From positions 1 to 35,505 of IMG/VR virus record IMGVR_UViG_3300035490_000021: a stretch of 35,505 nucleotides of DNA; one strand, written 5' to 3'. Numbering within the stretch: the first letter of the stretch is position 1; every line of letters starts with the position of its first letter. Below, piece by piece: positions 15,886 through 34,630 of this stretch. The notes below the pieces were generated by a model that saw nothing but the letters and a program-made list of their open reading frames with translations, searched no databases and was not told the origin of the DNA. Both the position numbers and the translations under genes were made by a program. The stretch comes from a virus.

Positions 15886-16338
15886 CTATGCTGTAATTAT
15901 AGCCTTCAAATACGCCTCATGGGCGGCAATTTCTGTGGGAAAATAACCGAGATATACTTGCCTACCGGCAACTTGAGCACGCGATTGCCATTTATTTTCA
16001 GTTTTCCGAAAAGAAGCTCCAACTAACTTTCCTGCACGATGATAATACTTATTTGAATTGTTCCCTCGACGATCCGTAGAACGAAGATTATATCGCTGAT
16101 TATTAAGTGTATCCCCATTTTTATGATCGGCTAGTTTGCCATCTCTATGCCGCAACCCCAAAATCTCCCTAGCCATAGAAACAGTGTATGATTCATTCTC
16201 TGTATAAAAACGGCGTTCTGCATAAAAAGATCGGGAGGTAGGTCGCCATGCCGCCTGCCACTTCCACTGTGACAGCCATTCAAAATCGGCGTCATCAACT
16301 TTGGCAAATTGCCCTTGCGTAAGTGGAATTAGTTTCAT
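15886..16338 (-). CDS. HNH homing endonuclease (HNH + AP2-like DNA-binding segment)
   Basis: A 150-residue protein. VSMAREILGLRHRDG precedes LADHKNGDTLNNQRYNLR (about 93-110), the D-H-x-N..N-x3-N..L-R core of HNH_3-type homing endonucleases. A C-terminal GASFRKTENKWQSRAQVAGR...YLGYFPTEIAAHEAYLKA is a typical AP2-like DNA-binding tail. The gene is free-standing, with its own ATG 2 nt after the nozzle-protein stop. It probably spreads by cutting phage lacking it, and sits between two virion genes. Unlike the HNH fragments near the capsid gene, it looks intact. Confidence 0.85.
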   Translation of the reverse strand: MKLIPLTQGQFAKVDDADFEWLSQWKWQAAWRPTSRSFYAERRFYTENESYTVSMAREILGLRHRDGKLADHKNGDTLNNQRYNLRSTDRRGNNSNKYYHRAGKLVGASFRKTENKWQSRAQVAGRQVYLGYFPTEIAAHEAYLKAIITA

Positions 16339-20901: not shown

Positions 20902-21843
20902 TCAACAATGCACAACTAATGCTCTTGGCACATGGACTACTCCATGCTTAGATGCTAAATGAACCGCGTCCAAAAAATGTCCTTCTGCGTAGATGGAGCT
21001 TTCGGTCCAACCGATCTCTCTTACAAGTTCTGATCGGATCATATATGCGGGCCACGCTTTACAATGCGGCCAAACTCCAAATCCAGCGTAATGATGGGCA
21101 CAATCACATACCGCCGCATCGGCCTTAAAATGCTGAATTATCCCCACCATTTGTTCTATAAAGCCCGGTGTTAGATAATTATCATCTAGGGCAAAATTTA
21201 TAAATTCACCTTTCGCCGCATTTATACCCCATTGTCGCCAACAACTTCCCCAATGACTTTTTGTTTCCGGCGTCTCCACGAGCACAACTTTTTCCGGTTT
21301 TTCTTCTTCAATCCATTTTCGGGCTGCGGGATGCGGTCCATCCGTAACGATTACTAATTCCCAGTTATCGTATCGCTGAAATTTCATCGACAAGTGAGTG
21401 AATTTCAATCTATCTAAATTATTATAAGTAGACACAATAATCGAAACTAACGGCTCTCTTTCTAAAGGAATATGCCTTTCCCGCAATAATTCTTGATACC
21501 ATTTACGAGTATACGATCCGTGCAATAGAATAGGCGAATTATCTATGCCTCTATCCTTAAAAATTGCCGCTACTGTAGCATGACTTCGTTCTACGCCTTG
21601 AATACACTGAATGCACAAATGTGGAACATCCTTGTTTCGATCTATGAAATCCCAAGCCTGTTTTGCGGGATTATCAGACTTTGCCAAGTCATCAAAATAT
21701 AATATCAAACGATCCACCACTCTGGCTGGATCGTGGATCGGAGACACGGTATCGGGAATTTCGGCAAGTTGAAGAAGAGCAGTAGCCCCCGGAAGGTCAT
21801 GGTGTTCCAAAGAAAGCTGATTCCAGGCAAATACTTGTTGCAT
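20902..21843 (-). CDS. GT2-family glycosyltransferase
   Basis: A 313-residue protein starting at the ATG at 21843, in a TGATG overlap with the methyltransferase stop and preceded by GGAGGAAAATCTG. The GT-A fold is shown by VSIIVSTYNNLDR (about 133-145), DNWELVIVTDGPHP (about 159-172) and FINFALDDNYLTPGF (about 214-228). In the last, DDN fills the metal-binding DxD position. A region of about 130 residues of unknown type comes first. It would transfer a sugar to host surface glycans or to a virion protein; the acceptor is unknown. Co-transcription with the O-methyltransferase suggests they act on the same glycan. Confidence 0.85.
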   Translation of the reverse strand: MQQVFAWNQLSLEHHDLPGATALLQLAEIPDTVSPIHDPARVVDRLILYFDDLAKSDNPAKQAWDFIDRNKDVPHLCIQCIQGVERSHATVAAIFKDRGIDNSPILLHGSYTRKWYQELLRERHIPLEREPLVSIIVSTYNNLDRLKFTHLSMKFQRYDNWELVIVTDGPHPAARKWIEEEKPEKVVLVETPETKSHWGSCWRQWGINAAKGEFINFALDDNYLTPGFIEQMVGIIQHFKADAAVCDCAHHYAGFGVWPHCKAWPAYMIRSELVREIGWTESSIYAEGHFLDAVHLASKHGVVHVPRALVVHC

Positions 21844-22565
21844 CAGATTTTCCTCCAATATACTCCTGTAAAATCTACTTCACTTATGGGTATCGTTATG
21901 TTCTCTTTTCGCCGGTAGTCATCAACCGCCCGTTTACACGGTTCAATATTGTTATAGTCATCAATAATTACAAATCCTCCACCGGATACTTTTGGATAGA
22001 GATTCACAAGTGTATCCATTGTAGATTCGTACAAATCCCCATCAAGTCGCAACAACGCTAAATTCCTAATCGGAACAGTTGGGAATGTGTCTTTGAACCA
22101 TCCTTTTAGAAATTTCACATTCTCGCACAGCAGTCCGTACTTATCAAAATTAGATTTCACCTGTTCTAGTGAAATCTTTAAGTTATTCTCCAAGTAGAAG
22201 TTGTATCCGTTATCGAATGGATATTTATCTACATCGGGCTTAGGTAGTCCACAAAAGGAATCTGCAACCCAAACTGTGCGAAAATCCTCCTTGTAGGCTT
22301 TCAGAATTGCCTGCATAAAAATGCACGCTCCACCCCGCCAAACACCGGCTTCTAAAAAATTACCGTGGATTCCTTCTCGTATGACCGTTTCTGCACAAAA
22401 CTGGATATTATCCAACCGTTTCAGTCCAATCATCGTATGAGCAATTGGGGGTCTAGGTCCATTTCCCTCTATCCTATTTCCAGCAGAAATGTGAGGTTCT
22501 GTTTCGGAATAAATCTCGTTGACAAGACACCGCTTCATCAAATCAAGATATAAATTATTAGACAC
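21843..22565 (-). CDS. TylF-type O-methyltransferase (macrocin O-methyltransferase family)
   Basis: A 240-residue protein with the TylF signature set: YLDLMKRCLVNEIY at the N-terminus, GNFLEAGVWRGGACIFMQAI (about 84-103, SAM-binding), VWVADSFCGLPKPD, LLRLDGDLYESTMDTLVNLY (about 186-205, metal/catalytic Asp), GGGFVIIDDYNN and VYWRK. TylF enzymes methylate sugar hydroxyls with SAM and Mg. It starts with GTG after CAGGAGAAACAA, the genome's standard ribosome site. It is the first gene after a strong promoter and is coupled to the GT2 gene. Confidence 0.9.
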   Translation of the reverse strand: MSNNLYLDLMKRCLVNEIYSETEPHISAGNRIEGNGPRPPIAHTMIGLKRLDNIQFCAETVIREGIHGNFLEAGVWRGGACIFMQAILKAYKEDFRTVWVADSFCGLPKPDVDKYPFDNGYNFYLENNLKISLEQVKSNFDKYGLLCENVKFLKGWFKDTFPTVPIRNLALLRLDGDLYESTMDTLVNLYPKVSGGGFVIIDDYNNIEPCKRAVDDYRRKENITIPISEVDFTGVYWRKI

Positions 22566-22585
22566 TTGTTTCTCCTGTTCTACCC

Positions 22586-22613
22586 ATTATACGCTATAAA
22601 TAGCATAAGTCAA
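22586..22613 (-). promoter_or_regulatory. Sigma-70-type promoter for methyltransferase, glycosyltransferase and tail genes
   Basis: On the minus strand, TTGACT (22613-22608), a 16-nt spacer and a perfect TATAAT (22591-22586) lead into a short leader with AGGAGAAACAA and the GTG start at 22565. The -35 box overlaps the end of the U-tract of the preceding terminator, so transcription of the capsid block is separated from the block below. Confidence 0.8.
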
Positions 22614-22653
22614 CAAAAACGGCGTACCGGCCATGGAGGGATGCCGATACGCC
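22612..22653 (-). terminator. Rho-independent terminator after the capsid-adjacent gene
   Basis: The stem GGCGTA/TACGCC (22621-22626 with 22648-22653) continues, after one mismatch, into CGGC/GCCG (22628-22631 with 22643-22646), with an 11-nt loop. On the minus strand it is followed directly by GTTTTTGTT. It is placed 29 nt after the stop of the 22682 gene. Confidence 0.8.
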
Positions 22654-22681
22654 GGAACCGGGGAGAAACAAAACGCCACCA

Positions 22682-23647
22682 TTAAGGAGCGGTACGCTGT
22701 GTCACAGCGGCGGACAGGAAATCAACTTTGAGTCCGGTAGACAAAGTAGCTCCCATGACCCCGCCAGTAACGATAATCGCTCCGTAGCTGTTGAGAGTAT
22801 CAAACAAAGTCGGCGTCACTGTGACGGAACCAACTTGTGCCCCATTCACAGCGAAAATGACCTGATTGTAAGGCACATTGTACAACAGACCCAACTTTAC
22901 GCAAGTCGTGCTATTCAATACACCGGGGGCAGAAGCGGGCGACTGATACACGTTGCCGGGATTCCCGCCATAAGCCGTGCTATTGGTAAGCACAGTAGAA
23001 ACAACACAGTTAACCGTGCTGGCGTAAGCTGTAGAATTGGGCGGGGTGATCGTGCTATACGCACCGTTCGACGCAACACCCTGATAGATCGCATCAAAGT
23101 TATTCGGAGTGTCGCCGTGCAGCCAGAAACCAATCGCACCCGTGGACGGTAAAAGCTGATTGCTATTGGCAGTACCGGAAACAGTCTTGAGAATGTTACC
23201 AGTGGAAAGGCCGGTAGAAGTGGTGAGGCCGATAAACGCGGCTTGAACCGCACCGGCGTTCACAGTGGCAACCGACGCCTCAAAGATAACGTAACTTCCG
23301 CCCGGCTTAACCGGCCCCATCGGACGAGTAAAGATCGCGGCTCTACCGGCAAGAGTAGCCGTAGAACCGGGGGCCATGATAATCACATGGTCATTGCCGG
23401 TCGGAAGAGTGGAGGTACTGAGGTTGGCCGTGGTGTCATAATAGACACCGGAAGTAGCGGTAGACCCCGCATCCACTGACGTAAGAGCAGAAGGCCACAA
23501 CGCATGATCGAAATTCTCATCGACATAATAGCCAAGATCAAGATCGGTAATATCCCGACCGGCAGAAGGTGCCCACAGAAGGGGGGATTTCTGCTGAACA
23601 CTCTGAGTCGATGAATATTGCTGAACGGTGACAATGCCAGTGCGAAT
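22682..23647 (-). CDS. Ser-Thr-rich capsid-adjacent structural protein, no standard start codon
   Basis: Beta-rich protein directly after the capsid gene. The coding frame is open from 23656, just after a TAG, and reads TYIRTGIVTVQQYSSTQSVQ, then QKSPLLWAPSAGRDI and onward. No ATG, GTG or TTG occurs in this frame until a TTG at 23500. That TTG would cut off a clearly protein-like N-terminus of about 50 residues. I place the start tentatively at the ATT at 23647 (MRTGIVTVQQ..., 321 residues); this is an inference. About 15 Ser-Thr dipeptides are present. By position it may be a decoration or minor capsid protein. Confidence 0.55.
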   Translation of the reverse strand: MRTGIVTVQQYSSTQSVQQKSPLLWAPSAGRDITDLDLGYYVDENFDHALWPSALTSVDAGSTATSGVYYDTTANLSTSTLPTGNDHVIIMAPGSTATLAGRAAIFTRPMGPVKPGGSYVIFEASVATVNAGAVQAAFIGLTTSTGLSTGNILKTVSGTANSNQLLPSTGAIGFWLHGDTPNNFDAIYQGVASNGAYSTITPPNSTAYASTVNCVVSTVLTNSTAYGGNPGNVYQSPASAPGVLNSTTCVKLGLLYNVPYNQVIFAVNGAQVGSVTVTPTLFDTLNSYGAIIVTGGVMGATLSTGLKVDFLSAAVTQRTAP

Positions 23648-23670
23648 ATAAGTACCCTACTTTCTGTCAA
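23645..23670 (-). promoter_or_regulatory. 5' motif of the capsid-adjacent gene (copy 2)
   Basis: The minus strand reads TTGACAGAAAGTAGGGTACT and then TATATT, beginning inside the TGA stop of the HNH fragment. It resembles the element at 24917-24943: TTGA, AGAAAG, TAG, GGTA and an AT-rich end in the same order with two small gaps. It could be a shared translation leader, a promoter-like element or the boundary of an inserted sequence. Confidence 0.45.
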
Positions 23671-23795
23671 TGAGGAAGATAATCAGCTAACTTAAACAAC
23701 CGACTTCTATCCTCTTCAACTATTCCTAAGACTGCATTGCACCCGTGGCAAATCAGTCCGCGAAACTTTCCTGTTTGGTGATCGTGTTCCAAAGG
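23667..23795 (-). pseudogene. Endonuclease VII-like HNH fragment after the capsid gene
   Basis: Directly after the capsid TGA and in the same frame, 42 codons read PLEHDHQTGKFRGLICHGCN, then AVLGIVEEDRSRLFKLADYL. This is the second half of an Endonuclease VII/HNH domain (DHDxxTGxxRGLLCxxCNxxLG...YL). The CxxC half that should precede it is missing and there is no start codon, so it looks like a remnant, unless it is made by readthrough of the capsid stop. Confidence 0.75.
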
Positions 23796-24917
23796 TCAAA
23801 TTGGTAAATGGATATGCCACCCTGCCGACCGGCGATTTCTGATAACCAAGTTGTAGGTGCTATCAATGAAGCACGAAACAACTGTGTGCTGTTGAGCAGT
23901 AACCGCAGCTACCTTTTCTACGTTCCACATCGAATTTAACACGGTTGGTTGAATCGCACCCCAACGCACCATGTAAATCGACGCGGGATTTACGCTCCCG
24001 CCAGTGATAGAAGAAGTAACTGCTTCGGTATCCAAAGTCGGAGCGTATCTGAGCGGCACACCGCTAAGCGAGACACCTTCATTAGTGAAACCGATGCGGC
24101 CCGAAAAATCTTTTTCAGGACCAGTATAGTCGCCACTCTTGTAGCAGTAATCTTCCAACTCATCAACCGTGACGGCGGAAGCATACAAACCCATCTCACT
24201 GTCGATGCGAGAATAATCCTCACCGGGATTCTTAACCATCTTGGGAAAGGTAAAATCGGTGAGCCGGGTAATATGGCGAATCAATCGCACAAGAGAGTTA
24301 TCGACTTTGGTATAAGTACCTACCATGCTCTGCCACTTCGGTTGAATGGCAGCATCAATACCGGCACAGAGAGTGCCAGTAGAGCCGTCCTGATAGCGGA
24401 TAGTCTGACCGGCGAAACCCGATCCGGTGAATCCGCCATTGGCAAAGGGGAGGAAATATGGAATGCCGAGCGGAGTCTTGGTATCGCCCGCATTCACGGG
24501 CGTAATCCAGCCGTTCGCCTCATACAACTCGGCAAGCTGGATCATGGAATCGGTACGCTTCTGGTCGATGAGGTCGATGAAGCCGGACTTAGAACCGGAG
24601 TTCATCTCCAATTCAGCAACATCGTAAGACCAGTTGACACCGGAGAAGGCCCAAGGCACAATGATGGTGTTCATCGCCTGCGGAGCAGCCGGAACGTCGG
24701 TTTGATAGAGGACACGGTTTTGGGCCTGATTGAAGTTATAATTCAGGACCGCCATCTTCTGAATGGACTTCCCGCCTTCAGATTTAATGTGGTCGTCGTT
24801 GAGAACGGCACAGAGGGGATATTTTGGCTGGTTTAACATCAACTCCCAGCTTCCATCCCAGGGTAAGTCATTGAGCGTATCCTGAACGAGATCAGTCAGG
24901 GCAGATATGTCGGCCGT
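23796..24917 (-). CDS. Major capsid protein (HK97-fold type), no standard start codon
   Basis: The C-terminus ISxxxIDSTYNLVIRNRR-type stretch (visible as FIDSTYNLVIRNRRSAGW) and segments DLIDQKRTDSMIQLAELYEA and VRLIRHITRLTDFTFP match a family of phage major capsid proteins. The N-terminal helix ISALTDLVQDTLNDLPWDGS, expected in this family, lies upstream of any ATG. The frame is open only from 24935 (after TAG) and holds no ATG/GTG before residue about 27 of this call; TTG 24842 would remove the helix. I tentatively use ACG at 24917 (MADISALTDLVQ..., 373 residues). Only two Ser-Thr pairs. It probably forms the shell with the scaffold encoded upstream. Confidence 0.7.
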   Translation of the reverse strand, partial: TADISALTDLVQDTLNDLPWDGSWELMLNQPKYPLCAVLNDDHIKSEGGKSIQKMAVLNYNFNQAQNRVLYQTDVPAAPQAMNTIIVPWAFSGVNWSYDVAELEMNSGSKSGFIDLIDQKRTDSMIQLAELYEANGWITPVNAGDTKTPLGIPYFLPFANGGFTGSGFAGQTIRYQDGSTGTLCAGIDAAIQPKWQSMVGTYTKVDNSLVRLIRHITRLTDFTFPKMVKNPGEDYSRIDSEMGLYASAVTVDELEDYCYKSGDYTGPEKDFSGRIGFTNEGVSLSGVPLRYAPTLDTEAVTSSITGGSVNPASIYMVRWGAIQPTVLNSMWNVEKVAAVTAQQHTVVSCFIDSTYNLVIRNRRSAGWHIHLPI

Positions 24918-24943
24918 ATTATTACCGCTACCTTTCTATTCAA
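24917..24943 (-). promoter_or_regulatory. 5' motif of the capsid gene (copy 1)
   Basis: The minus strand reads TTGAATAGAAAGGTAGCGGT and then AATAATA, ending at the ACG proposed as start. It is similar in order and spacing to the element at 23645-23670. AAAGGT could act as a weak Shine-Dalgarno about 12 nt before the ACG. Confidence 0.45.
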
Positions 24944-24973
24944 CAACTGCCCGGTTCGGGTATCTGTTGAATA
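24937..24973 (-). promoter_or_regulatory. Strong hairpin immediately before the capsid gene
   Basis: A perfect 9-bp stem TATTCAACA/TGTTGAATA encloses a 4x4 internal loop and an inner CCCG-AAC-CGGG hairpin. It ends right at the AGAAAG of the capsid 5' motif and lies just after the stop of the HNH fragment. There is no T-tract on the minus strand, so it is not a typical terminator. It may protect the mRNA 5' end, guide ribosomes, or be part of an inserted element. Confidence 0.65.
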
Positions 24974-24982
24974 TTAGGCAGC

Positions 24983-25234
24983 TTAATGGGAATGTCGAAT
25001 TAGGTAGTATAGAGCGGTAGTTAAGATAAATGGACTATCACGGAAGAGGCCCAAGGCAGCATTACATTCTTTACACAGAAGATCGCGTGTCTCGTCGATT
25101 TCGTGATCGTGATCGCCACAAAGAATTGCACAAAATTTTCCGCAGATTTTACAAAGCCCGTCTTGTCGCGGTTGCTCCGCAAGAGAACGGGGTCTACTAA
25201 AAGCCTGCCGCCAATTCAGCAGGACTTTATTGGA
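24983..25234 (-). pseudogene. Endonuclease VII-like HNH ORF without start codon
   Basis: Directly after the scaffold TAG and in the same frame, 83 codons include LCKICGKFCAILCGDHDHEI, then RDLLCKECNAALGLFRDSPF and TALYYLIRHSH. CxxC, DHDH and CxxCN are the zinc and catalytic motifs of Endonuclease VII-type HNH nucleases, so the core is intact. No ATG, GTG or TTG is in frame between the scaffold stop and the core. It could be a remnant, a product of TAG readthrough, or start at an unusual codon. Confidence 0.75.
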
Positions 25235-26329
25235 CTATGCAATTCTCGTCACAAAATGCTTACTCTTTCTCGGTGAAGTTTCCGGTGCAGGATTCCCGCC
25301 CCCCACATTTCTCTGTGTGAGTGCAGCATCCCGTGCCTTCGCTTCATCTGTGATTTCCTGCCGAGCCGCAGCTTTCACAATCGGGGCGGCTAACGCATCA
25401 TGGGCCATCGTCAACGCCTCTGTGACGGTGACTTGCCGCCCCTGTGCGGCTAGACCAGCTTCTACCGCTGCGGCAGTTTCTAACAACTTCTGCTTCACTT
25501 CCGGCTTCGCATAATGCTCTGTGTACGCCTTCATTCCTTCCTGTGCAAAGAAGGAATTGATTTGCGTCTGAGTCGCGGCATTCTGTGCGGCCCGTGTAGC
25601 TTCCCGTTGCTGTTGCCGGAAAGCAATATCGGATCGTGCCTGTTTGGCAATAAAAAGTGCAGAAGGATTATTCGGATTCAGTTTTAGAAATTCCTGAATA
25701 TCTGCTTCAGTTACTTCATCCGTCGCAGCGGGAGCAGTCACAGGTGTTTGCTGTGCGGCTGGTTTTTGCTGTTGCACTTGCTGACCAAGCCGAGCATACG
25801 CTTCCACTTCCTTCTTGCGGATATTATGAGCCATCTCCGCAATATTTAGGAAGTCTTTACTTCCAGTTTTTAGTTTCTCATCAATCTGTGCATCTGTGTA
25901 GCCGTAATTCTGAAGGCTTCTACGGACTTCGGCGGGGAGAGTAGTAGTCTCTTCTGCTATAGGCTTTTGTTCCTGAGCGGGCTTTTCTTCTGCCTTAGCC
26001 GGTTTCGTTTCAGTCTTTTGTTCCTGAGCGGGAACTTTCTCTTCTTTCGGTTTCTTTTCATCGGATGCGGGCTTTTCAGCAGACGGTGAAACTGCCGGTT
26101 CCGGCGTAGACTTTGCAACCATCCGCACTACCGTGTGCTTCTTGGTTAGCGGCTGTCCCTCTTCCGTTGTCGCGGGAGTACCAGCCATTGCTTTGGCGAA
26201 TTTCTCATCCGAGATTCCGGCGGCAATCTTCGCCTTTGTAGCACGATCCGTGGGTTTCGGTGCGGGTGCTTGTACATCCGTTGCGGATTTTCGTTCGGGT
26301 TTAGGTGTGGGGATTACTGGCTCTGGCAT
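25235..26329 (-). CDS. Capsid scaffold protein
   Basis: A 364-residue, highly charged protein. A Pro/Lys/Glu/Ala-rich disordered N-terminal half (EEKPAQEQKPIAEETTTLPA and similar) is followed by a helical/coiled segment (about 150-340) and the tail SPRKSKHFVTRIA. Composition, predicted helices, and the position between portal and capsid genes fit a phage scaffolding protein. A basic C-terminus is usual for scaffolds that touch the capsid lattice. Start supported by TAAGGAGTTATCATG. A GC hairpin (26341-26359) precedes its ribosome site. Confidence 0.75.
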   Translation of the reverse strand: MPEPVIPTPKPERKSATDVQAPAPKPTDRATKAKIAAGISDEKFAKAMAGTPATTEEGQPLTKKHTVVRMVAKSTPEPAVSPSAEKPASDEKKPKEEKVPAQEQKTETKPAKAEEKPAQEQKPIAEETTTLPAEVRRSLQNYGYTDAQIDEKLKTGSKDFLNIAEMAHNIRKKEVEAYARLGQQVQQQKPAAQQTPVTAPAATDEVTEADIQEFLKLNPNNPSALFIAKQARSDIAFRQQQREATRAAQNAATQTQINSFFAQEGMKAYTEHYAKPEVKQKLLETAAAVEAGLAAQGRQVTVTEALTMAHDALAAPIVKAAARQEITDEAKARDAALTQRNVGGGNPAPETSPRKSKHFVTRIA

Positions 26330-26381
26330 GATAACTCCTTAGCCCGGACTCAGCCGGGGAAAAAGGGACAACTGACGGATT

Positions 26382-26642
26382 CTAGGCAATCTTTCTCATA
26401 GAGACAATAGACGACATCGGAATCGACAAACTTCCCCCACAATATTTTGTCCCCTCTGTTTCAAACATGTGGCCGCTGATTACGACATTGTGTTTCCCAA
26501 TAGAAGTAATCCACCCAATAGAAAAACAAAATGCTTGTGCTTCAGATCGTTCTTGCCAAGGCTCCCACACTTTTCCATCTCGAAACGAATCGGACCACTT
26601 CAATTTAACTACATCACCGAGTTTGAATTTACGGCAGATCAT
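26382..26642 (-). CDS. Small SH3-barrel-like protein (hypothetical)
   Basis: An 86-residue protein. FKLGDVVKLKWSDSFRDGKV at the start and WITSIGKHNVVISGHMF suggest a small beta-barrel (KOW/SH3-like). It starts in a TAATG overlap with the FmdB-like gene. Cys at positions 3, 39 and 68 are scattered. Function unknown. Confidence 0.6.
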   Translation of the reverse strand: MICRKFKLGDVVKLKWSDSFRDGKVWEPWQERSEAQAFCFSIGWITSIGKHNVVISGHMFETEGTKYCGGSLSIPMSSIVSMRKIA

Positions 26643-27001
26643 TATCGCTTCTTTTCTTTCATCGCGTAGTGGAAATGCTTTAGCACCCTACTTCTCTCTT
26701 GTTCGTTGTGTACGACTGGCACCCCGTACATATCACTCGCCGGATCACCCTCACATTGAATATCAGGATTCTGTTGTCGGAAATTATCAACTTCCTCTTT
26801 CTTCACAGGGGCGAGTGAAAACAACTCTATCGGTTTATGAAAATCCAATTGTGCGTGCGGGCATGGAAATTGACGTTTCGCTGTGAGTTGTTTGCATTCC
26901 GGGCATTCCTGCACTTCGGGGATAGGGTCTACTCTTCCGAACTTAAAGTAGTCGGTAAAAGTATTGCCGCAAACGTCACAGTGGTAATCGTATATTGGCA
27001 T
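26642..27001 (-). CDS. FmdB-type zinc-ribbon protein
   Basis: A 119-residue protein starting MPIYDYHCDVCGNTFTDYFK with CPECKQLTAKRQFPCPH at about 33-49. The MPxYxYxCxxCGxxF and CPxC pattern is that of the FmdB/putative regulatory zinc-ribbon family. The C-terminal half is a charged extension. Phages often carry one such protein near capsid genes; the function is not known. It overlaps the upstream gene by 26 nt and the downstream gene by 1 nt. Confidence 0.8.
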   Translation of the reverse strand: MPIYDYHCDVCGNTFTDYFKFGRVDPIPEVQECPECKQLTAKRQFPCPHAQLDFHKPIELFSLAPVKKEEVDNFRQQNPDIQCEGDPASDMYGVPVVHNEQERSRVLKHFHYAMKEKKR

Positions 27002-28125: not shown

Positions 28126-30096
28126 TCAAAAAGCATTCGCCGTGGGTAGAGCCGGGGCCGGGGGCTTCCCGCCTATCCCGTGCAACAGGGCACTACGAAT
28201 CACACGCTGAGCGTCTACCGCCCCACCTTGAGCGGCCATGTTGGCTTGCTGCGGGGGCGTCGGCTGCGGGGCCATTACATTCCCCGGCTGTCCATTCTGT
28301 GCAATGGCATTATTCATCATCGGCGGTTTTTGGTCGGCTCTCACGTCACCACCCGTAGCCATCTGAATCGCATTATACTCCATTGCGGCTTTCTGTTGGA
28401 TAGCGGGAGCAAACAACACAGAATCCAGCCAAGTGATTCCCATATCCTGTGCCATGTGCCACAGCATTTGCGAAGCGTCGAATGGAATGCCGAGTGTTTG
28501 ACAAATCTGTGCCGCACCCGCAACGGCGGGAAGAATTTGTTGACAGAACATTTGTTCTTGTTGCAATCGAGTCTTGGAATCCATCCTACCTTCGGATTCC
28601 GGCTCAACTTTGAACACCAAATCCAAGAAATCGCCCGACCGATCTTCCGGGGTAAGATTAAATTGTACTTCCTCAATAGTCGGCGGCGTGACCCATTGCG
28701 GGACACCAGTCGGGCCAATTTGCATCTGTCCTGCATTCATTACTCGCTTACTTAGCAGTTCATTGAGCATCGGATTGGTGTGAATGAGATACGTCCGTTT
28801 ACGAGCTTCCTGTGCAGAAGCATCGTAAACCGCATTCTGCATATCAGAAAGACAGATAGAAGCATTCTTGTCTAATAGATTCGCAGCAGTCGCAGACTTA
28901 GCGGCAGAAGAAACACCGGATAGAGTTTCAACATTGGATGCCAGCATATTGAATTCTGACATCAGCATGTTCAGATGTTCAACGTTGCTATTTTCTTGCC
29001 CACCCAAACTAATCTTGTTTATCGCGGAAGGATCGTCCATCGAAATAGCTTCGCCGTCTGACGCATCAACAACTTTCTTCGCATTCTCGACTTCCGATGC
29101 TTTGTAAGCAAGAATATCTTTCTGCCGATCCGCCTGCATGGAAATCTTGACTGCCATACGATTGACAGCCATTTCCAACTGAAACAGCACTCGCATCAGC
29201 GGCACAGGGAGCGGCTGATCGGGAACGGGGATAGTGAGAGAAAGGAAAGTATATGGCCCTTCTTTTACGCCGAAATACGGGGCAACACGCAAGTAATCTT
29301 TTGCCTCATAATCGAAATCACCAGGAATCGTCACAATGGAATTAGCCGAAGGCACCCACAATTCGCAGATTTCGACTATATCCTCCAAGTCTGCATTCTC
29401 GCCGATATTAATATTCCCCATCGTAAGATTGGCAGTTTTCTTCTCGTTCACAGTGTTAGAGTTGTTTCGCGGGAGACGCTCTACTATATCTTTCTTGTAT
29501 TTGCCTGAATCAAGTAATACTCGTCGCGGCACTCGAATTTTATTTCCTATGAATCGGGCATCCAAATAGAGGTATTCTCGGCTGTCGGGGTCTGCTACAA
29601 AATCGTCAAAGCTAATACGTTCGGTATAAATCTCCCCAACGTCAATCTTGGTATTCCCCTCTTCTTCATTTTCCAAAGAAAGAATATCTCCACCTGCTTC
29701 TAGGCCCGTTTTCATTATTCCGATATTGTGAAGTGCGTCCATTATAACGCATCGGAGAATACTCGGCATTCGCTGTTTCTTATCGTAGAGGGATAGGGCT
29801 AATCCTAAACTCTGTGCATACTGTCTCGCTGGAAGATATGGCGTCTCTATCACATGGCGAAGAGATGGAATTACAAGCTGCGGCAAAAGAGTGCGGCCTA
29901 CGTTAAACAGCAATGCGAGAGGAGAATCTAACTTGATCTCCTTGTCGCTGGTAAAGGCCGGGCCAGCCATTAGCTTACAGGTGAATCGTGAGCGATAACG
30001 GTCAGGCTCTAAACGATCAAATCCGCGTTTCACTTCGGCGGCAAACTTGGCGGGACTTAATTTCCCTAAAATGTCTTTTGGCTTAGATTTAGCCAT
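28126..30096 (-). CDS. Portal protein
   Basis: A 656-residue protein encoded just after the terminase and before the scaffold. Features fitting a portal are a long mixed alpha/beta N-terminal part (about 1-320, DFVADPDSREYLYLDARFIG), a long helical stem-like region (PLMRVLFQLEMAVNRMAVKI, about 320-345) with the DASDGEAISMDDPSAINKIS loop, and GVSSAAKSATAANLLDKNAS near 425. A Pro/Gln/Ala-rich tail ends the protein. I use ATG at 30096 (MAKSKPK..., after TAGGATTGTAT), not the TTG two codons up. It would form the 12-subunit DNA gate at one capsid vertex. Confidence 0.85.
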   Translation of the reverse strand: MAKSKPKDILGKLSPAKFAAEVKRGFDRLEPDRYRSRFTCKLMAGPAFTSDKEIKLDSPLALLFNVGRTLLPQLVIPSLRHVIETPYLPARQYAQSLGLALSLYDKKQRMPSILRCVIMDALHNIGIMKTGLEAGGDILSLENEEEGNTKIDVGEIYTERISFDDFVADPDSREYLYLDARFIGNKIRVPRRVLLDSGKYKKDIVERLPRNNSNTVNEKKTANLTMGNINIGENADLEDIVEICELWVPSANSIVTIPGDFDYEAKDYLRVAPYFGVKEGPYTFLSLTIPVPDQPLPVPLMRVLFQLEMAVNRMAVKISMQADRQKDILAYKASEVENAKKVVDASDGEAISMDDPSAINKISLGGQENSNVEHLNMLMSEFNMLASNVETLSGVSSAAKSATAANLLDKNASICLSDMQNAVYDASAQEARKRTYLIHTNPMLNELLSKRVMNAGQMQIGPTGVPQWVTPPTIEEVQFNLTPEDRSGDFLDLVFKVEPESEGRMDSKTRLQQEQMFCQQILPAVAGAAQICQTLGIPFDASQMLWHMAQDMGITWLDSVLFAPAIQQKAAMEYNAIQMATGGDVRADQKPPMMNNAIAQNGQPGNVMAPQPTPPQQANMAAQGGAVDAQRVIRSALLHGIGGKPPAPALPTANAF

Positions 30097-30112
30097 ATAC
30101 AATCCTAGGCTC

Positions 30113-32107
30113 TTAAATAAAGTCTGTCACCTTAAACTTATCCCCCAACCGCAAGTCTCGCACCGTTCTATCCTTCGGAGGGTTAAGATAGCCGCCTGTC
30201 CTAATCCTATACCCCGGACTCCCCGGCGGGGCATTCTCAATGCCGTCCAAACTATTTTTCACTTGCGGTTTCGGCTCTTCGATTTCATGTTCTGATCCCG
30301 CCCAACAAGCGAGTGCGTCTGCGATAACTCTGTCGCCGTGTGCCGATTTCGCAGCTTCGCTTTCTTCTGTGAGGGAAGATGGTTCTATACTACCCGTCTC
30401 ACTCACAATATAATCGGCGGCCTCTTCTATTGCTTTTACGCTTGGATTAACAAAATGTCCCACAGCGTATTCGCGGCGAAGATTCCCAAGCATCAACGCT
30501 TTCTTACTCCGCGACGATGACCAACCGAGATTGGCAGTTACCTTGTCGATGTCCCGATTTGTAGTTGTAGCACGATAAATTTCGGGGTAAGAATAGATGC
30601 GAGATAATTGCCGCAACAAATCGAAACCGGGATTACCGTTCGCCTCCGGTACAACTAAAGGCCGCGTCGATCCCGATCCAAACCACAATGCCGCAGCAGC
30701 AATTTGTTTTGCGAAAGAATGAGGCGGTGTTCGGGAATCCGCGAATTCCGCAACTTTGTGACGCGTGCGTTTATTAATGACTGAGATAACAGAGTTAGAC
30801 GCACCCATTCCAAGTGACGTATCGCATCCGAATACCCAGAGATTCCCCGATCCATACAACTTATCATATTCTCCTTCTTTCGCATGTGGATTAGGATTTG
30901 GCGGAATAGTCCACAGGGACCACGGCCCCTTAGAATCTACCACAGCTTGTACCTTTGTCAAGTCTCTTCGTAAAATTATTTGTCGTATCTCTGACTCTGG
31001 CACATCTCTCTTAAACTCGATTCGCAATCTCAACAGAGGATCGCGGCCATAGGACTTCTTATGTTTGTCGAGGATCAATCCCTCAAAGAACGGTGTACCA
31101 GATTCCAGATAGTCAATATCTAGGTTCGAGGCAATATCGTTTGGGGATCGGATAGTGCATTGATGGGCATACCAAGATGAGGTAAGTTTCCACTTTCCAG
31201 GTGCGATTTCCACAGACGTTAAGTCGCTTGCTTTTTCGGGGGATAGCCACCAACCAAAAGTCTCGATTGGGATTTGGCCGCTAAATCTCACCTTTGCAAA
31301 GTAATTGGTCTTTCCCACGGGGGTGGACACAGGAAGTTTACACAATGTTACGTCTGTAGTCTGATCCCAGATAGATTTGAAATTCGGGTTTTTCGCAGCT
31401 TCGTCAAAATATACCGCGTCTCTGCGTTGACCCGTGAAGGCGAATTCAGCGGAAGCTCCGCCGTCGAGTCGGCATTTCCCGTCCAAGTTGAAGATATGTA
31501 ACCGTTTGCGGGCCAACCTTGGAAGCATCCATTGTGGAAGGTGCTGCAAACAGTAGTCAATTTTGCCCAATAAAGTTGCAGGATCGGAATTGACATGGAG
31601 CGGGTATCCTTTTACATCTCCCATTAAGGAGTCAACATCATCCTCAATTCGGGACAACAGACCAATTTCGCATCCCCTACGAAATAAGAAATGGTGGGTA
31701 AAGACATAGAGATACATCCAACTTGCCCCGATTTCGCGGGATTTCTCTAGGAGAAAGGAAGTACCTTTTAAGATGCTGTTATGAATTCTCTCCATCAATG
31801 CGATCTGACTTGGCCAAGGGATAAACGGTTCTAGCTTGCTATCTTTACTTACTGAAATTCCATCCACTCCCACTTCAAAAAACTTTCGTGTCCATCCGAA
31901 TAGCGACACCCACAGCACAGGCGAATCGGCACACATTTTAAGAATGGATGCCCGGAATCGCGGATCGGTTTCACAGCGTTCCAAGACAAATTTTCGCCGG
32001 GCTAGATTTTCCGTGCGGCCCATCGGGATTTCTAAACCACTCTTAGGATCGGTCCAGAATCTAGGCTGATGTGGGATTTCGATTTGGGGTTGGCTTTGGA
32101 ATTCCAA
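30113..32107 (-). CDS. terL: Terminase large subunit
   Basis: A 664-residue DNA-packaging motor. The ATPase domain has EKSREIGASW (about 121-130, Walker A variant K-x-R-x2-G-x-S/T) and DAVYFDEA (about 230-237, Walker B plus catalytic Glu). The RNase H-like nuclease domain begins with NLWVFGCDTSLGMGASNSVI (about 422-441, Asp about 429). The start is a TTG at 32107 after AAAGGCACATAAAC, which overlaps the TerS-like gene by 47 nt; the first ATG is at residue 30. A TTG start and long overlap suggest translation coupled to the upstream gene. Confidence 0.9.
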   Translation of the reverse strand: MEFQSQPQIEIPHQPRFWTDPKSGLEIPMGRTENLARRKFVLERCETDPRFRASILKMCADSPVLWVSLFGWTRKFFEVGVDGISVSKDSKLEPFIPWPSQIALMERIHNSILKGTSFLLEKSREIGASWMYLYVFTHHFLFRRGCEIGLLSRIEDDVDSLMGDVKGYPLHVNSDPATLLGKIDYCLQHLPQWMLPRLARKRLHIFNLDGKCRLDGGASAEFAFTGQRRDAVYFDEAAKNPNFKSIWDQTTDVTLCKLPVSTPVGKTNYFAKVRFSGQIPIETFGWWLSPEKASDLTSVEIAPGKWKLTSSWYAHQCTIRSPNDIASNLDIDYLESGTPFFEGLILDKHKKSYGRDPLLRLRIEFKRDVPESEIRQIILRRDLTKVQAVVDSKGPWSLWTIPPNPNPHAKEGEYDKLYGSGNLWVFGCDTSLGMGASNSVISVINKRTRHKVAEFADSRTPPHSFAKQIAAAALWFGSGSTRPLVVPEANGNPGFDLLRQLSRIYSYPEIYRATTTNRDIDKVTANLGWSSSRSKKALMLGNLRREYAVGHFVNPSVKAIEEAADYIVSETGSIEPSSLTEESEAAKSAHGDRVIADALACWAGSEHEIEEPKPQVKNSLDGIENAPPGSPGYRIRTGGYLNPPKDRTVRDLRLGDKFKVTDFI

Positions 32108-33548: not shown

Positions 33549-33737
33549 TTATTTCTCTTCAGATTCTAGGCTTGGATCACATAGTGTTTCCACAGGATTA
33601 TACGGAGCAGGGGGTAACGCTGCAATTTCTTGCTGTTCTTTGAAGCTCCGCTTGCGATAGCCCAACTGTTTCTCTCGTTTTTCTTCCTGTGACGAGAAAT
33701 CTTCGCGGAGGTTGAGCTTTCTAAAATGTTGATTCAC
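33549..33737 (-). CDS. 62-aa charged protein (hypothetical)
   Basis: GTG in a GTGA overlap with the upstream glycosyltransferase stop. The product HFRKLNLREDFSSQEEKREK continues with LGYRKRSFKEQQEIAALPPA and an acidic end. It is highly charged. Function unknown. Confidence 0.5.
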   Translation of the reverse strand: MNQHFRKLNLREDFSSQEEKREKQLGYRKRSFKEQQEIAALPPAPYNPVETLCDPSLESEEK

Positions 33738-34630
33738 ACAACACTCGCATCAATCTCTTCCTGCATTAATTTCTCTTCTCTCTGCAATTCCAATAGCACA
33801 AGTCGGGCATCGCCGCTGCCATATCCTATTGCTGATTTTCCGACTCCGGTAATCGTGCCGTCGAAGTTAGACTTCCATTTTTTGAGAAAAATTTCCACTC
33901 CGGCCAACCAGTCCGACTGCATGTAACTGCCGGTTGAGTTGTGTGAGATGTAAATATCAGTGCAGACAGCAGTACGCAATCCAGCGGTGTGGCAGTACAA
34001 GCTAAAATCCAGATCGTAAAAATGGAAGCCGGGATAACGAGTATCAAACTTAATTTTCTTCGCTTCATCCGCCCTCATAATCATGCAATAGCCGTCCATG
34101 ACTCGAATTCCTCTTACAAGTTTAGCTTGTCTCCCCCACACAGTTGTTTGACAAGGCCGCATTCCAGCAGCACGAATCATTGCCATTTCTGGTGTAATGA
34201 CTGTGCCTGGAGGATCGCTCGGATAGTTAACAACTCCCCCGTAACAACTTGGCAAGTGATCGAACCAGCGTGGACCTATTACGCGAGAAGCACCAGCGAA
34301 TCCCATTAAATCACATTTCGACATTCGTTCTAAAAGACGTTTACCACACACATAGTATGGCAAACTAATCGGCCAAGCGTCGTGGTGACTGAGGATTAGA
34401 TATTCAGTTTGACATTGTTCTAGGATTTGGTTGTATCCCTCTGCCATTGACTTTGCAGTAGCACAGAGAGTCGGCACTTCCTTCTGAAGATCGGATAATC
34501 CGCGTTGCCAGTGAAAAGTCGCTTCCCGTACACGTTCGGGTTGATGAGAACAGATGCCGAGAGAGAATGGAGGAAGAGAACCGGCGATTCGCATCCCGGT
34601 AGGAAGAGGAATTTTGTAGGGATCACTCAC
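33734..34630 (-). CDS. Glycosyltransferase-like protein (GT2/PF13712 type)
   Basis: A 298-residue protein with a GT-A-type layout. It has AEGYNQILEQCQTEYLILSH, then HDAWPISLPYY (about 75-90), with HHDAW at the nucleotide-sugar/metal position of 'glycosyltransferase like family' proteins. DGYCMIMRADEAKKIKFDTR and PGFHFYDLDFSLYCHTAGLR (about 185-220) are the acceptor-side signature of that family. It would add a sugar to a glycan or protein; target unknown. GTG start in a GTGA overlap. It is the second glycosyltransferase in the genome. Confidence 0.75.
   Translation of the reverse strand: MSDPYKIPLPTGMRIAGSLPPFSLGICSHQPERVREATFHWQRGLSDLQKEVPTLCATAKSMAEGYNQILEQCQTEYLILSHHDAWPISLPYYVCGKRLLERMSKCDLMGFAGASRVIGPRWFDHLPSCYGGVVNYPSDPPGTVITPEMAMIRAAGMRPCQTTVWGRQAKLVRGIRVMDGYCMIMRADEAKKIKFDTRYPGFHFYDLDFSLYCHTAGLRTAVCTDIYISHNSTGSYMQSDWLAGVEIFLKKWKSNFDGTITGVGKSAIGYGSGDARLVLLELQREEKLMQEEIDASVV

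Follow-up and report, generated by a model that had tools for sequence, protein, structure and literature searches.

How are the major capsid protein and the next head protein of an uncultured tailed phage made when neither reading frame offers a standard start codon? The question is raised by a virus record of 35.5 kb, analysed here over its whole length (the window), in which all genes of the locus lie on the minus strand (Table 1).

Structure of the start-less locus

It turned out that the capsid frame, bounded upstream by a TAG (24938-24936), has its first ATG, GTG or TTG at a TTG at 24842, and that the frame of the neighbouring head gene, also bounded by a TAG, has its first standard start at a TTG at 23500. 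Only these two among the 43-45 genes surveyed in the window are without ATG, GTG or TTG. The genes on either side of a different homing gene (15886-16338) keep normal ATG starts, so such insertions do not generally cost a start. Both junctions show the same order: the upstream gene ends immediately, an in-frame Endonuclease VII fragment without a start follows, and the downstream gene again has no standard start. This confirms the layout described in an earlier note on this DNA.

Table 1. Features of the locus in window coordinates; L001, L003, L023 and L105 are contigs compared in the text.
Feature	Position	Strand	Remarks
Terminase	30113-32107	minus	First of the head-gene series reading along the minus strand
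Portal-position gene	28126-30102	minus	After terminase, before scaffold-position gene
Scaffold-position gene	25235-26329	minus	ORF ending ..FVTRIA, then TAG at 25237-25235
5' hairpin H1	25198-25228	minus	UAAAR-Y-CCUGCUG..CGGCAGG-C-UUUUA; terminator-like; conserved in L003 with a G.U to A-U change
HNH1	24983-25234	minus	In-frame, start-less, 5'-truncated Endonuclease VII relic; Pfam PF02945 (Endonuclease_7), E 2.3e-13
3' hairpin H3	24927-24982	minus	Predicted to sequester the AGAAAGG leader; L003 has the identical loop block ATTCAACAGATACCCGAACCGGG
Capsid leader	24918-24938	minus	TAG-bounded; TAGAAAGGTAGCGGTAATAAT
ACG where the capsid initiator codon is expected	24915-24917	minus	Also ACG in L003
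Capsid frame (major capsid protein)	23796-24917	minus	Predicted HK97 fold; no standard start; stop TGA at 23798-23796
HNH2	23667-23795	minus	What is left, in frame, of the C-terminal part of a second Endonuclease VII gene; L001 lacks the core
ATT near the expected neighbour initiator codon	23645-23647	minus	
Neighbour head gene	22682-23647	minus	No standard start; homologue adjoins the capsid gene in L023 and L105, there with ATG
Control: second-type HNH gene (PHROG 99 type)	15886-16338		Between two structural genes

Judged by its modelled fold and its position after the scaffold gene, the capsid frame is an HK97-fold major capsid protein. The AlphaFold model, made from 16 relatives, has a mean pLDDT of 65 (medium confidence), and the top matches of Foldseek against PDB are HK97-fold capsids (best E 2.3e-7, TM 0.3-0.5). 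No match of the capsid was found in annotated phages, Pfam or PHROGs, and a pattern search with its back-translated helix found zero relatives. The predicted structure of the neighbour was too poor for use. A tRNA/tmRNA search found none.

Both endonuclease fragments score above the curated PF02945 cut-off (HNH1 with 50.3 bits vs 23.6). They begin at profile positions 19 (HNH1) and 41 (HNH2), neither with a start codon, and the HNH2 match (E 4.9e-13) covers positions 41-80 only. A complete Endonuclease VII ORF that can be started is found only in L003, not in the window copies. The missing start of HNH1, counted by the earlier note as part of the anomaly, is real but not odd in itself, because HNH1 is a 5'-truncated relic and L003 holds a full-length gene with its own ATG.

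Beyond the neighbour gene, a near-perfect sigma-70 promoter (TTGACT-16-TATAAT, 22613-22586) stands right after a terminator-like hairpin and precedes methyltransferase-like and glycosyltransferase-like genes inside the virion operon.

Relatives with normal starts

Capsid relatives were gathered by scans with terminase, capsid and genome contigs. This gave 19 further capsid loci beyond this phage (about 25-41% identity), a few of which are near-duplicates of each other; L001, a second and nearly identical assembly of this phage, was left out of the count. The earlier note had proposed such relatives without HNH fragments as a guide to the native 5' ends, and the comparison was informative: in 19 of 19 the capsid has an ATG or GTG about where it is expected, just downstream of the scaffold gene (scaffold stop 14-66 nt upstream), most with an SD-like site and none with an HNH in the gap. 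Loss of the start thus goes with the HNH insertions, and the endonucleases are indeed decaying, which fits decayed homing elements in place of the normal starts, one of the mechanisms suggested in the earlier note.

In the alignment, the capsid Met of the closest relatives lies within one residue of the window ACG. The neighbour homologues in L105 and L023 start 16 residues before a conserved SPxxW and the window ATT stands 20 residues before it, about 4 residues from the homologues' Met. The upstream proteins also look shortened. The scaffold C-terminal tail is shorter than in relatives, a longer tail being common in the family (alignment of 17 scaffolds), and the capsid C-terminus is about 3 residues short (HLPI* vs HKAIPGS* and HKVIPAS* in the closest relatives). 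A match of L118 to the scaffold end (FVHRIAFP) was discarded, as it falls outside the L118 scaffold ORF.

Two further observations concern the relatives themselves. Eight distant loci (L105, L109, L110, L111, L112, L116, L118 and L120) have conserved stem-loops just downstream of the capsid gene and before the next one, whose loops resemble GG..AACGTAAC or GCGGTAAC; these may be an unannotated structured RNA, and no Rfam match was found in the four loci tested. Besides, the capsid relatives L126 and L127 come from contigs assigned to Phycisphaeraceae and Brocadiaceae genome bins, a hint that the virus group has Planctomycetota hosts.

The same start-less state in a diverged phage

L003, a 10 kb contig from another metagenome (82-97% identical to the window), has the same insertion site and the same ACG, with flanks about 93% identical on the 5' side and 86% on the 3' side. 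The Endonuclease VII gene between these flanks is a different one and is complete, ATG included (82.5 bits, PF02945). The capsid ACG is therefore seen in three assemblies, one of them about 20% diverged in the capsid. Divergence between window and L003 jumps across the first insertion, from about 6% at the scaffold end to about 20% at the capsid start. Such a jump is expected if homing endonucleases mark recombination boundaries (PMC10448857), and it is an indirect sign that these putative homing endonucleases may cut and home.

Elsewhere the identity of the two genomes also swings, from 97% between terminase and portal to 86% at window 33586-34551 (L003 1-966) and about 80% at the capsid start, and by this comparison the genome is mosaic. 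The intact HNH insert of L003 (9347-9600) contains a terminator-like hairpin, TATAAT-type boxes and a 29-aa hydrophobic ORF; its HNH ATG lies 7 nt after a TATAAT, so a leaderless mRNA is possible.

The capsid N-terminus was compared codon by codon between window and L003. Among the first 22 codons 13 differ, and all 13 differences are synonymous in the ACG frame; read in other frames, the same changes give 12-14 nonsynonymous ones. At the 3' end, window and L001 differ in 6 codons, again all synonymous. Purely synonymous changes at both ends indicate that capsid translation extends from roughly the ACG as far as the stop. By these substitutions the capsid is under strong purifying selection from the ACG onward, after the shared insertion, and the start-less state is old and functional. 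Together with the position of the homologues' Met near ACG and ATT, they agree with the earlier view that the layout is beyond chance. Comparison of the genomes thus confirms that an essential and conserved phage gene in which no start codon can be recognised has been retained, next to exchangeable homing genes, through substantial divergence.

Differences between the two inserts

The first insert ends in a predicted hairpin (H3). Folding gave z -3.9 for window 24890-25000 and z -7.2 for L003 10060-10170, and in this model a stable hairpin buries the SD of the capsid leader, in L003 especially. A scan of viral contigs for the 3' loop and the 5' hairpin found them only in these phages; three further matches of the 3' loop sit in unrelated genes. 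Rfam cmscan of window 21000-27000 and L003 9000-10229 found no intron family up to E 5 and no relevant family, and weak matches of microRNA families to the L003 hairpin were set aside as chance palindrome scores. This agrees with the earlier judgement that a group I intron is unlikely.

The second gap is different. It has no 5' RNA block, and L001 is without the HNH2 core, yet its neighbour gene is start-less too, with a capsid/neighbour gap of 98 nt. The earlier note had read the two junctions as independent repeats of one layout sharing a TTGA..AGAAAG..TAG..GGTA motif. Neither point is well supported: besides the differences just named, the similarity of the capsid and neighbour leaders is weak, ranking 27th among 903 leader pairs in the genome. 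Around this gap, a tract of about 115 nt (window 23844-23730 vs L001 5092-5155) differs between the otherwise almost identical phages: the capsid codons differ synonymously, the stop is TGA in the window and TAG in L001, and the lengths are 51 nt apart; it looks like a recombination or homing tract.

Possible initiation at ACG and ATT after proposed junction-replacing insertions

The simplest reading, to which we give a probability of about 0.4, needs nothing new. Two Endonuclease VII-type HNH homing-endonuclease genes would have inserted into consecutive junctions, scaffold/capsid and capsid/neighbour, and have since decayed. Each insertion would have replaced the native junction, so that a few C-terminal codons, the ribosome site and the ATG were lost; the clipped capsid and scaffold proteins suggest such replacement rather than mere addition. 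Translation of the downstream genes would now begin at ACG and ATT, near-cognate codons that each differ from ATG by one base, within the AGAAAG-type leader that remains 3' of the endonuclease relic. The capsid would begin with fMet-ADISALTDLVQDTLNDLPWDG, or with ADIS.. after Met removal. For the second gap, 98 nt in L001 is too short for any known self-splicing intron, so that initiation in place is the simplest account of the ATT gene.

Several points weigh against the ACG. In bacteria, ACG and AUU initiate translation very poorly, and the capsid protein is needed in hundreds of copies. A single transition would give ATG, and neither lineage has made it though most synonymous sites have changed. 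The SD of the leader is predicted to be occluded, as described above. By estimate, chance would place a near-cognate codon no more than one codon away from the expected capsid start with a probability of about 0.2.

Other explanations

The alternative that survives best, possible but less probable than initiation at ACG and ATT, is that the scaffold/capsid insert is removed at the RNA level like an intron of unrecognised type, the HNH being a homing gene that is turned over and the shorter neighbour gap a dead remnant. Joining ..GCAT to GGCCGAC.. in the window would create ATG, and joining ..GCGT to GGCCGAC.. in L003 would create GTG, as the capsid start, spaced like the AGGAGAAACAA-ATG sites of the genome. 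The ends of the insert are conserved while its HNH content differs, and the local capsid leader is occluded by the hairpin. Spliced introns in phage capsid and tail genes are real, one of only 265 bp (PMC3706429), so the idea is not far-fetched; in ICP1 introns the HNH content varies and the junctions stay (PMC10448857). Against it, no Rfam intron matches at E up to 5, terminator-like hairpins lie inside the insert, and no junction in gap 2, which is 98 nt in L001, yields a start in both alleles.

A specific form of RNA removal is more doubtful still, namely a small RNA element with exchangeable Endonuclease VII genes that lies inside the capsid start codon and is removed from the mRNA through guide pairing of H3 across the splice junction. 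In both genomes, 9 of 10 positions of the joined exon can pair with CCGGG(CAG/TGA)TT in H3; a U.G falls on the junction, and three loop substitutions keep the pairing. However, the position of the guide near the 3' end departs from both group I and group II, and the shuffle test gives p of only about 0.05, which makes the pairing a hint, not proof. The two leading readings imply different ancestors: a clean intron-like insertion implies an uninterrupted native junction, GCATGGCCGAC, and junction replacement implies a longer scaffold tail followed by SD and ATG.

Defective genomes or assembly error, in which the starts are broken and the genes unexpressed, would suit metagenomic contigs with relic HNH genes. 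This is largely refuted and has a slight probability at most: the same ACG occurs in separate assemblies from at least two metagenomes, with the capsid apparently held by purifying selection after the shared insertion, and translation from about the ACG makes assembly error a poor explanation.

Even less probable is ribosomal bypassing of the gaps in the manner of T4 gene 60, which would give joined products. The codon before each stop (ATT before TGA/TAG; GCA or GCG before TAG) matches a downstream landing codon (ATT; GCC), and of the matched ATT codons in gap 2 the first is followed directly by a stop and the second is preceded by an SD-like sequence, while a hairpin lies within the gap; T4 gene 60 shows all these features in a homing-endonuclease context (PMC5009743). 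But the gaps measure 98-853 nt vs 50 nt in T4, the codon match of gap 1 is synonymous only, the ATT match arises at about 3.5% by chance, and the products would be scaffold-capsid-neighbour fusions, whereas all relatives keep separate genes.

Translation from the internal TTG/ATG codons, of which 24842 and 23500 are the first standard starts, is the least probable of all, for the earlier note's proviso that the residues upstream might be untranslated runs against their synonymous-only changes, and an internal start would delete the N-terminal helix (residues 4-17, ADISALTDLVQDTLNDLPWDG region), which is modelled with good confidence, aligned in relatives and conserved at the amino-acid level.

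Three other candidates were rejected. Recoding of the stops was dropped, as ordinary genes here are separated by standard stops. For a -1 frameshift out of a TTG in the +1 frame, neither an SD nor a convincing slippery site is present, and conservation lies in the ACG frame. The bases of a GTG four codons before the scaffold stop are scaffold codons, which would have to be joined to the capsid in the transcript.

If ACG and ATT are used, the most abundant protein of the phage is made from codons thought nearly dead as bacterial starts, and gene finders would consistently overlook genes of this kind or misplace their starts. Splicing of the insert would instead mean a new type of intron that present RNA models do not detect. 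Under both readings, a homing gene can lodge at the start site of an essential gene and leave the virus viable.

Comparison with known systems

The bypassed T4 gene 60 (PMC5009743) resembles this locus in the stop right after a codon that recurs downstream, the hairpin, the SD-like site and the homing-endonuclease context; here the gap is far longer and separate proteins are expected, and the nascent-peptide evidence is confined to T4. The ShiLan insertion with a hidden HNH (PMC11855218) is, like the present one, an element matching no known intron or intein, but it keeps the host frame open, whereas here stops and missing starts are created.

The LittleE capsid intron (819 bp) and the BAKA tail intron (265 bp) (PMC3706429) show that an insert in a capsid gene, one of the two introns having a homing-endonuclease frame, is compatible with production of the protein. 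They split codons inside the gene and their splicing has been shown, whereas our insert is at the start codon and has no recognised intron core. In the tape-measure introns of ICP1 (PMC10448857), as between window and L003, HNH content varies at one site and the flanks stay, and nucleases mark recombination boundaries; the present insert lies between two genes and is known from DNA alone.

The free-standing HNH genes of T4-like phages (PMC2988022), such as mobA splitting topoisomerase 39/60 and mobE in Aeh1 nrdA, likewise insert in or beside essential genes and disrupt them, with hairpins and terminators that control the neighbours. Their nucleases are unlike the Endonuclease VII type found here, and both the nuclease genes and their neighbours have recognised starts, which the genes downstream of our inserts lack. 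In conclusion, the arrangement is a novel form of homing-gene insertion.
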